Shown here piece after piece: positions 27,679-29,023 of a stretch of 64,000 nucleotides of DNA (its first letter is position 1; every line of letters begins with the position of its first letter). The position numbers and the translations under genes were made by a program. Under the pieces are notes generated by a model that was given only the letters and a program-made list of their open reading frames with translations, was not told where the DNA came from and searched no databases. The stretch lies in NCBI GenBank assembly GCA_016712865.1, contig JADJQH010000008.1:1054001-1118000 (forward strand). The letters are read 5' to 3'. This stretch comes from Dokdonella sp. Lineage in GTDB: Bacteria; Pseudomonadota; Gammaproteobacteria; Xanthomonadales; Rhodanobacteraceae.

Positions 27679-27864
27679 CCGCTCGTGGCGAGCTCCCCAG
27701 CAACTCCGTTCGTGGTGAGTCTGTCGAACCATGAGCAGCACCTTATCCCACCGTTCGTGGTGAGCTCCCCAACAGCACCGTTCGTGGTGAGCTCCCCAAC
27801 AGCACCGTTCGTGGTGAGCTCCCCAAAAATTCCGTTCGTGGTGAGCTTGTCGAACCATGAACGG
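27679..27864. repeat. Family C repeat array, left (upstream of the GIY-YIG gene)
   Basis: Five or six units in the orientation CCGTTCGTGGTGAGC, several joined by GAGCTCCCCAACAGCA spacers. The last unit is full length, ending GTCGAACCATGAACGG. The rest of the 358-base gap from 27586 to 27943 shows no gene. The next array beyond the GIY-YIG domain has the opposite orientation. Confidence 0.9.
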
Positions 27865-27943
27865 ATTTGCCGGGGAGCTGACCGTGCGCAACTGGTTCGA
27901 TATGCCTGTCGAACCATGGACGGTGAGAGGGTTACCATGTGAC

Positions 27944-29023
27944 ATGGCTTTCTACCTCTACATGCTTCGCTGCGCGGACGGTTCCTACTACACGGGACAC
28001 AGCGATGATCTGGATCGTCGTGTCCATGAGCACCATTCGGGATCGATCCCGGATTGCTACACCCATGATCGAAGGCCATTGCTGCTGGTTCATGTGCAGG
28101 AGTTCGGCTCGCGTGAAGAGGGGCTGGCTGCGGAAGTCCAGGTCAAGCGTTGGAACAGGGCGAAGAAGGAAGCCCTGATTGCCCAGGACTGGGATGCGCT
28201 GCGACTTCTGGCACGGGCGAAGGGAGCAGGCGAATCCGTTCATGGTTCGACAGGCTCACCACGAACGGAATTATTGGGGAGCTCACCACAAACAGGTGGT
28301 TCGACAGGCTCACCACGAACGGAGTTGGCTGGTGGTTCGACGGGCTCACCGCGAACGGGTCGTTCGACAGGCTCACCGCGAACGGAGTTGTGTCGTTCGA
28401 CGGGCTCACCACGAACGGAGTTGCTTGGTGGTTCGGTAGGCTCACCACAAACGGGTGGTTCGACAGGCTCACCACGAACGGGTGGTTCGACGGGCTCACC
28501 ACGAACGGAGTTGCTGGGCGAGCTCGCCATGAGCGGTGCATTGGATGACCATCGTTGGATGCGGCATGCACTCGAGCTTGCGCATCGCGCGCAAGGAGAG
28601 GGCGAGGTGCCGGTTGGGGCCGTGTTGGTGATGGACGGCAAAGTTATCGGCGAGGGCTGGAATCGCAACATCGTGTTGAACGACCCCAGCGCGCATGCGG
28701 AGATACTGGCCTTGCGCGATGCCGGTGCGCGCCTGGTCAACTACCGTTTTCCGGGCGCCACCTTGTACGCAACGCTGGAGCCTTGTGCCATGTGTGCAAT
28801 GGCGCTGGTGCATGCACGCGTTGCGCGCGTCGTGTTTGCTGCCGATGATCCGAAGACGGGCGCTGCCGGTAGCGTGTTCGACACCCTGGTGTCGGAACGG
28901 CACAATCATCGAATCGATGTGGAGCGCGGTTTGCTCGCCAATGCGAGCGCGACGCTGCTGCGTGAATTCTTCCGCGCCAGACGCCAGCGTCAGTCGATGG
29001 CGCGACGGAAGTCGAGATCGTAG
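27944..29023 (+). CDS. GIY-YIG domain fused in frame to TadA through translated repeats
   Basis: One uninterrupted frame of 359 residues. Residues 1-97 or so form a GIY-YIG nuclease-superfamily domain of the YhbQ/UPF0213 type: [49 protein letters not shown]. Residues about 98-195 are a low-complexity linker of eight or nine copies of a peptide like STGSPRTE, encoded by family C repeats. The remainder is a complete tRNA adenosine deaminase. It may be made as a fusion, or tadA may start separately at 28529. The frame also extends upstream to 27857 through more repeat DNA, which is unlikely to be translated. Confidence 0.7.
28236..28508. repeat. Family C repeat array, right (inside the GIY-YIG-TadA frame)
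   Basis: Begins with a full palindrome (CCGTTCATGGTTCGACAGGC ... CGAACGG) and continues with about eight half-units TTCGACAGGCTCACCACGAA-CGG and one partial. Spacers such as AGTTGCTTGGTGG keep the reading frame open throughout. The orientation is opposite to the array at 27679-27864, so the GIY-YIG domain is bracketed by inverted arrays. Confidence 0.9.
28529..29023 (+). CDS. tadA: tRNA adenosine(34) deaminase TadA
   Basis: Deaminates the wobble adenosine of tRNA-Arg(ACG) to inosine, an essential step. Read from its own ATG at 28529 the protein has 164 residues, normal for TadA. Zinc ligands and the proton shuttle are present: HAEILAL (His and catalytic Glu) and PCAMCAMAL (two cysteines); [10 protein letters not shown] precedes them. 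The frame has no stop between this ATG and the GIY-YIG domain, so it can also be translated as a fusion. The Shine-Dalgarno before 28529 is weak (GGGCGAG). The last 34 bases overlap the convergent S51 gene. Confidence 0.92.

Follow-up and report, generated by a model that had tools for sequence, protein, structure and literature searches.

Pairing of small GIY-YIG nuclease genes with REP-like palindromic repeats in bacteria

A gene for a small GIY-YIG nuclease lies between inverted arrays of a palindromic repeat in the window, the whole 64-kb stretch of bacterial DNA analysed here, and comparison with other genomes makes it very probable that small GIY-YIG nucleases and palindromic repeats are truly paired. 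The association of gene and repeat extends over several phyla, the repeats are specific to the GIY-YIG subfamily, their copy number is linked to the gene and their stems covary. The pairing recurs in many bacteria, and the enzyme family therefore probably recognises the repeats and may spread them. On the best reading these are REP-associated GIY-YIG nucleases, analogous to RAYTs and unrelated to them. We lean towards the window gene belonging to a family of small GIY-YIG nucleases whose members act on the repeat unit in its folded form and spread it, a view to which we give a somewhat better than even chance.

A GIY-YIG gene between inverted repeat arrays

The family-A gene of the window encodes a GIY-YIG nuclease domain of 97 amino acids (27944-28234, forward strand). 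Its sole Pfam match is PF01541 (55 bits), alignments have Y6, Y16, G18, R26, H30, E64, W70 and R72 all kept, and an AlphaFold2 model reaches a pLDDT of 96 over residues 1-93. The Tyr, Tyr-x-Gly, Arg and Glu residues that mark the GIY-YIG superfamily, and whose roles are general knowledge, are present together with the fold. No extra DNA-binding domain was found within the 97 residues. By both sequence and fold the closest solved structures are the UPF0213 proteins 1zg2 and 1ywl, which are similar in size to the window protein, followed by Slx1 with weaker scores. None of 59 family members matched NCBIfam at E ≤ 0.001, where no model names a protein of the window type. Membership of a defence system was rejected, as neither of the two GIY-YIG proteins of the window matched the PADLOC anti-phage defence models at E ≤ 0.01.

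The first-pass annotation had described this gene as bracketed by inverted arrays of one repeat, with a single copy elsewhere, and both observations were confirmed. Upstream, at 27679-27864 on the forward strand, are six heads of the form CCG[T/C]TCGTGG[T/C]GAG, starting at 27679, 27706, 27751, 27778, 27805 and 27832; only those at 27706 and 27832 belong to full units, the other four being half units. A detached right half of a unit, GCCTGTCGAACCATGGACGG (repeat D4; 27904-27923, forward strand), lies just 5' of the gene. Downstream, the array at 28236-28536 has the opposite orientation (reverse strand), with ten heads between 28255 and 28536; its first unit, 28236-28268, is of full length, and the heads at 28282 and 28523 are half units, so that half units account for 6 of the 16 heads across both arrays. 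The solo unit at 18016-18048 (forward strand) is real; beside it are a second, weaker unit (18073) and, at 18098, an end motif resembling GGCAACGCTGATCAAG.

At up to three mismatches, the 22-nucleotide core of the unit matches the window 12 times (three upstream, eight downstream and one at 18018), where shuffles lead one to expect 0.02 matches. The 3.75-Mb genome to which the window belongs (G000) holds 124 matches at up to one mismatch and 128 at up to three, with none for a reversed control. As single-stranded DNA, three window units form hairpins of -6.7 to -8.9 kcal/mol (z of -2.7 to -4.7). The unit is REP-like in being a short imperfect palindrome that forms a hairpin and is present in tens to hundreds of copies. 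A known RNA family was ruled out as the identity of the repeats, there being no match in seven loci at the gathering threshold.

A single open frame (27944-29023) runs from the GIY-YIG start through the downstream array into a domain of the TadA-like, tRNA adenosine deaminase type (28529-29023, forward strand). The frame is likewise open through repeats into TadA in G415 and G069 (L256, L011), and at 21 of 21 loci with a trmJ start motif within 900 bp it runs into TrmJ without a stop; these GIY-YIG-TrmJ frames are from related sphingomonads and have linkers of 29-75 codons. Other read-through frames, at loci among L038-L117, lead into MeaB (L082), an FGGY kinase (L105) and JAB (L065), and S. 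parapaucimobilis is a counterexample, with separate, overlapping genes. The frame-preserving spacing of the units is weakened as proof of a real GIY-YIG-TadA fusion, because the spacings of the upstream units are likewise multiples of three and because the window-type unit, in its downstream orientation, is stop-free in all three frames.

Architecture of the repeat unit

The family-A unit opens with a head, CCGTTCG, at its 5' end; in the hairpin that comes next, the stem covaries freely and the core, GAG-CnnGT-CGA, is asymmetric. Triplets 8-10 and 24-26 are complementary in 135 of 153 gene-near units, as against a mean of 37 and a maximum of 53 in shuffles. With one unit taken per locus, 43 of 45 are complementary, using nine pair types, whereas sliding the partner by 1-3 columns left 0-1 of 45 and the shuffle maximum was 22. 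The search pattern left the covarying stem triplets free and fixed 17 of 22 positions, with at most one or at most two mismatches allowed, so that the constancy of the head, of the core and of the mismatched positions 12-22 and 13-21 (G-A and A-G) is partly by construction. Only 31-57% of units offer the outer head positions a partner inside the unit, and the head therefore looks like a tag.

Relatives in several phyla carry flanking repeats

Five proteins from 121 genomes of the order, that of the window among them, are at least 52% identical, the next being at 41%, and related palindromes were seen by eye at all five loci. A scan of a genome collection with these five proteins gave at least 574 confirmed relatives; the best 80 of these, ranked by score and not by flanks, were analysed. 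They come mostly from alpha-, beta- and gammaproteobacteria, with further records named Chloroflexi, Dehalococcoidia, Dependentiae, Omnitrophota, Binatia, Syntrophaceae and Sulfuricurvum, although some of these phylum labels may be wrong because many records are MAGs.

For each gene, flanks of up to 500 bp on the upstream and downstream sides were compared, and the best match between them was scored with a threshold of at least 15. Inverted matches reached it at 55 of the 80 loci, compared with 4 of 286 control placements in the same stretches, and direct matches were enriched too (30 of 80 against 7 of 286). One or the other was present at 63 loci; 25 fell below the inverted threshold and 17 below both. 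Seven of the nine records with outlying names pass the inverted or direct threshold (L040, L042, L055, L066, L069, L078 and L103), and L076 and L081 pass neither. CCGTTCG-nnn-TGAGC-nn-GTCGAA, or a variant, accounts for most of the matched flank sequences.

Counting units directly, there are 124 cores within 250 bp of the gene in the 80 loci (3.1 per kb), as opposed to 0.03-0.09 per kb beyond 1 kb and about 0.04 per kb at 4-10 kb, which makes the density at the gene ~76-fold that at 4-10 kb. The enrichment near GIY-YIG homologues that the first-pass annotation had proposed looking for is therefore present by both measures. Where units occur on both sides (35 loci), the nearest two are opposed in 28 and not opposed in 7, and the distance from a unit to one or other gene end is often no more than about 50 bp. 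The locus closest by identity, L038, has no unit in its 20-kb stretch. Chance and contig-wide clustering were rejected on the strength of the control placements and of a reversed-pattern control that gave no unit.

The class of repeat follows the GIY-YIG subfamily

A second GIY-YIG gene of the window (L004; 48065-48367, reverse strand) falls in another clade, family B. Upstream of it are three CGTC-tagged REPs, all in one orientation (48377-48403, 48583-48609 and 48777-48803, forward strand). In the definition given in PMC3733652, as far as its sections on this class go, CGTC-REPs have a CGTC, TGTC or CCTC tag, a stem of 8-9 bp beginning with AT, a loop of 4-5 nucleotides and a CC(A) tail. Our strict CGTC test was derived from this definition and written after the family-B flanks had been seen. 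The units at 48377-48803 have the tag, the AT-starting stem of 8-9 bp, the loop of 4-5 nucleotides and a CCA tail, and they are the only strict CGTC-REPs in the window. The units at 27679-28536 have no CGTC, TGTC or CCTC tag, which places the main, CCGTTCG-headed unit of the window outside the class as those sections of PMC3733652 describe it.

Repeat class follows GIY-YIG subfamily, in a double dissociation between families A and B. Family-A units lie within 600 bp of 44 of 80 family-A genes and near none of 28 family-B or 34 YhbQ-type genes. Strict CGTC-REPs lie near 11 of 30 family-B genes (25 units within 600 bp) and near none of the 80 family-A or 34 YhbQ-type genes; farther than 600 bp out, the family-B flanks have none, and 1.32 Mb of family-A stretches contain 21. 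Family-B matches at E ≤ 1e-12 occur in 33 of 150 genomes, and inverted flanks of at least 15 were found at 17 of the 29 family-B loci tested. The family-B gene of the window has an inverted flank score of 8 (L180), its CGTC units all lying to one side. The same genome has a third small GIY-YIG gene (L002, C4:63282), also of the family-B clade, which is bracketed by another palindrome, GTCATTCTGCG...CGCAGAAT. At several of the loci L128-L137, family-A genes adjoin a variant palindrome, CCTCATCCTGAGG...CCTCGAAGGATGAGG, which suggests that the repeat changes with the enzyme clade.

Flanking repeats are likewise confined to part of a tree of 166 GIY-YIG proteins, in which a row counted as flanked if it had an inverted or direct match of at least 15. 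The YhbQ/UPF0213-type rows, so named from a reading of the 34 sequences, form their own clade (98/87) outside which the window protein falls, and, unlike the window family, none of the 34 is flanked. In the family-B clade 22 of 29 rows are flanked, and among the other rows, on the family-A side, 84 of 103 are, with L038 one of the 19 below threshold. Few columns were available, so that the deep forks of the tree are uncertain, and family A itself has no clade support in it. The truncated L134, L136 and L204, together with L184 and L121 (a copy of the window gene), were left out of the tree; L184 is also outside the family-A-unit and strict CGTC counts, and the partial L209 is in no count.

The flanks were also compared between loci graded by score. 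Of the 26 family-A matches listed at 95 bits or more, loci were obtained for 20 (and for 30 of 56 family-B matches), and 17 of these 20 reach the threshold in inverted or direct orientation, the exceptions being L118, L131 and L136 (truncated); L134, also truncated, does so by a direct match. None of ten loci below 90 bits to the family-A profile passes either threshold. Truncated loci were kept in the tests of the 20 family-A and 29 family-B loci.

Repeat copy number is linked to the gene

The core, at up to one mismatch, reaches at least ten copies in 8 of 299 Pseudomonadota genomes: G000 (124), G139 (97), G340 (20), G144 (142), G244 (31), G329 (71), G344 (56) and G398 (79). A family-A match of at least 126 bits is present in six of these eight and in 3 of the 291 others (G121, G136 and G248), which gives a Fisher p of 2.4e-9 that ignores phylogeny and rests on lines, 126 bits and ten copies, chosen after the counts were seen. 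At 95 bits or more the figures are 6 of 8 and 14 of 291, and several of the additional genomes carry the CCTCATCCTGAGG-type variant, which the unit pattern does not count. Strong family-A genes number one or two per genome, and units tens to more than 100 in most. Within the genus, the gene is present in 3 of 10 genomes, and these have the highest unit counts (124, 31 and 21), the seven gene-less genomes having 8, 4, 1, 1, 1, 0 and 0.

The expectation in the first-pass annotation that the repeat should not be equally dense where the gene is missing holds for these comparisons but fails for G139 and G340, in each of which the one GIY-YIG hit is UvrC and no small GIY-YIG hit was found. The two are exceptions to the link between gene and repeat. 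In the stretches read, their units are mostly in inverted pairs about 50 bp apart, and G139, G340 and G323 share CCGTTCG[GGC or CCC]TGAGC units, many or few, in close inverted pairs. G059, a genome 77% complete, has 17 matches to the 22-nucleotide pattern and no GIY-YIG hit. In G248, a genome with only four units, the family-A match (L123) is interrupted by a stop at its codon 15 and is perhaps a decaying gene.

A proposed dedicated enzyme for each repeat family

The explanation we prefer is that each small GIY-YIG nuclease would be the dedicated enzyme of one dispersed family of REP-like palindromes. It would recognise the folded unit, as a single strand or a cruciform, and nick at or near it; repair or replication would then copy units to new places and expand them in tandem, and the gene would mostly remain where it is or travel together with the flanking units as a short cassette, in keeping with the short shared stretches in unrelated flanks, such as L106 and L113, described below. 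Binding, nicking and dissemination of units by the enzyme are what we infer from the patterns described above. Counting against this reading are G139, G340 and G059, the 19 of 103 unflanked family-A rows, the 7 of 35 loci with units that are not opposed, the one-sided CGTC units of the window family-B gene and copies borne by a MITE-like element, described below.

The likeness to RAYTs is one of arrangement. Like a TnpA-REP gene, the window gene is bracketed by inverted copies of a palindrome present in many copies in the genome, and, as in REPtrons, both kinds of unit combine a tag with a hairpin that has a mismatch, with further units elsewhere in pairs and arrays. In contrast to RAYTs, the window domain lacks the HUH (Y1_Tnp) domain and has the GIY-YIG fold instead, the tag is CCGTTCG or CGTC rather than GTAG, and cleavage by the GIY-YIG counterpart is only presumed here. 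In the passages of PMC8266576 on E. coli REPs, the GTAG tag and a stem mismatch (an AA-GC bulge) are requirements of TnpA-REP.

For CGTC-REPs, which include dRS3 and RPE-6 (Di Nocera et al. 2013), the relevant sections of PMC3733652 indicate that they apparently have no dedicated transposase, and an enzyme was associated there with just one of the two tagged REP superfamilies in that 2013 survey, the GTAG class. The units beside 11 of 30 family-B genes fit the description published in those sections, and here, in contrast, they flank GIY-YIG genes. We give an even chance to the broader proposal that small GIY-YIG nucleases form an independent, second class of enzyme that disseminates REPs, with two subfamilies that drive CCGTTCG-headed and CGTC-tagged repeats in many bacteria. 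If so, the missing enzyme of the CGTC-REPs would be supplied, and there would be a kind of mobile DNA in which a GIY-YIG nuclease, and no transposase, does the spreading. Bacterial chromosomes commonly contain REP elements, and those sections of PMC3733652 leave the CGTC class enzyme-less; if GIY-YIG nucleases serve both this class and the CCGTTCG-headed one, the gap becomes testable with a protein of ~97 residues and short oligonucleotides, and a function would be offered for small GIY-YIG proteins without an NCBIfam name. Among the matches listed from open-access papers, we found no link of GIY-YIG to REPs or RAYTs, nothing relevant for the unit sequences and no description of a CCGTTCG-headed class; papers that mention both GIY-YIG and RAYT seem from their titles to be chance matches.

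Alternative explanations

The repeats might instead spread by other means, such as replication slippage or MITEs, with the enzyme kept to cut or resolve their hairpins and cruciforms; the position of the gene among units would then reflect the clustering of units at its own locus. We think this unlikely. The branched-DNA nucleases of the Slx1 type are the closest solved structures after UPF0213, and the copy-number link would also be expected if the enzyme is needed where repeats are many, but the inverted bracketing of the gene itself in several phyla is left unaccounted for, and 97 and 20 units persist in G139 and G340, where no small GIY-YIG hit was found.

A second possibility, which we consider distinctly unlikely, turns on movement of the gene. 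GIY-YIG is a known homing-endonuclease fold, and homing enzymes share a catalytic superfamily with the window protein. The gene could be the mobile part, cutting solo units and being copied into them, and therefore found between units, with the abundance of units caused otherwise. Like GIY-YIG homing endonucleases, the window gene looks like a short cassette seemingly able to change location. L106 and L113 are 84% identical over 453 bp, which comprise the gene and its nearest units, with no other match above 150 bp within 3 kb; by eye, the homology ends some ten bases beyond the palindromes. Similarly, several pairs from beta- and gammaproteobacteria share little beyond the gene and the adjacent bases or units, in unrelated flanks. 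Against homing, there are one or two strong family-A genes for tens to more than 100 units in most genomes, many sphingomonad pairs share kilobases of synteny, trmJ lies just downstream in 21 of the 80 loci, and within the genus unit copy number follows the gene. Here, moreover, no intron or intein was seen and the small palindromic copies are many.

The hairpins could also act on the transcript of the gene, as terminator, autoregulatory element or RNA substrate of the enzyme, with the other copies being regulatory. Units within about 50 bp of the gene ends and frames that run through units into downstream genes would suit such a role, which is nevertheless very unlikely given that the unit sequence, and not a hairpin alone, recurs in several phyla, that the related YhbQ genes have no units and that a terminator needs no inverted two-sided arrangement.

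Least likely of all, and already disfavoured, is coincidence or a GIY-YIG gene that is a passenger of repeats moved by a RAYT or other transposase: G000 does have four Y1_Tnp matches and some of its units lie inside a MITE-like element, but no Y1_Tnp match at E ≤ 0.001 was found in the unit-rich G244, G329, G344 and G398 (nor in G136), no unit at up to two mismatches lies within up to 1.5 kb a side of 12 Y1_Tnp matches in G000, G139, G340, G144 and G121 (two of which are one gene, and four of whose stretches are shorter than 1.5 kb a side), and the sister YhbQ-type genes are flanked in none of 34 cases. A RAYT as the mobilising enzyme was accordingly rejected where tested.

Selection on the gene and possible carriers of the units

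Ratios of dN to dS are 0.03-0.10 in eleven pairs of relatives, with dS saturated in some, and between the window gene and that of the sister genome G415 the ratio is 0.23 (dN 0.0585, dS 0.2501), next to 0.21 for tadA of G000 and G415 (0.0446/0.2091). As judged from these substitution rates, the GIY-YIG gene is under purifying selection.

Units are gained or lost, and they expand. In 77 kb compared between G000 and G415, the units at 18016-18095, the solo unit of the window included, lie in ~150 bp that are missing from G415. At least four clusters of G000 (L169, L171, L173 and L178) are inside a MITE-like element with ends GGCAACGCTGATCAAG, about 120 bp long and with a single unit at a fixed internal place (for example, L169 471-590 and L173 2424-2543); arrays expand inside it at L171 and L178. 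Because the unit absent from G415 came in ~150 bp and these clusters are MITE-borne, some of the copies may have been carried by a different transposase. We saw no bare unit that had inserted cleanly.

By eye, 8 of 10 genomes of the genus have no GIY-YIG gene in the ~600 bp before tadA; their upstream regions differ, and no clean empty cassette site was seen there. Plasmid carriage as a route to empty sites was dropped, as only four plasmid records have a relative, all below 60% identity; the two that were read both have housekeeping neighbours.

Elsewhere in G000, at L006 and L007 (C3:69570 and C2:991286), a GIY-YIG-like frame lies in an apparent insert within a 23S rRNA gene, the rRNA identity being Rfam-confirmed for L007 only. 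The insert is bounded by the inverted repeat gaccactcaatcgct/agcgattgagtggtc, and the frames look damaged or misassembled. Comparison of the window with G415 C4 also revealed short inverted-repeat elements, at 5483-5636, 8659-8804 and 12324-12420, that are present in one sister genome only and fall into a TTGTCGCGAGCAAGCTCGCTCCCAC family and a CTGTTGAAAAACTACCTGCGTTGCC family.
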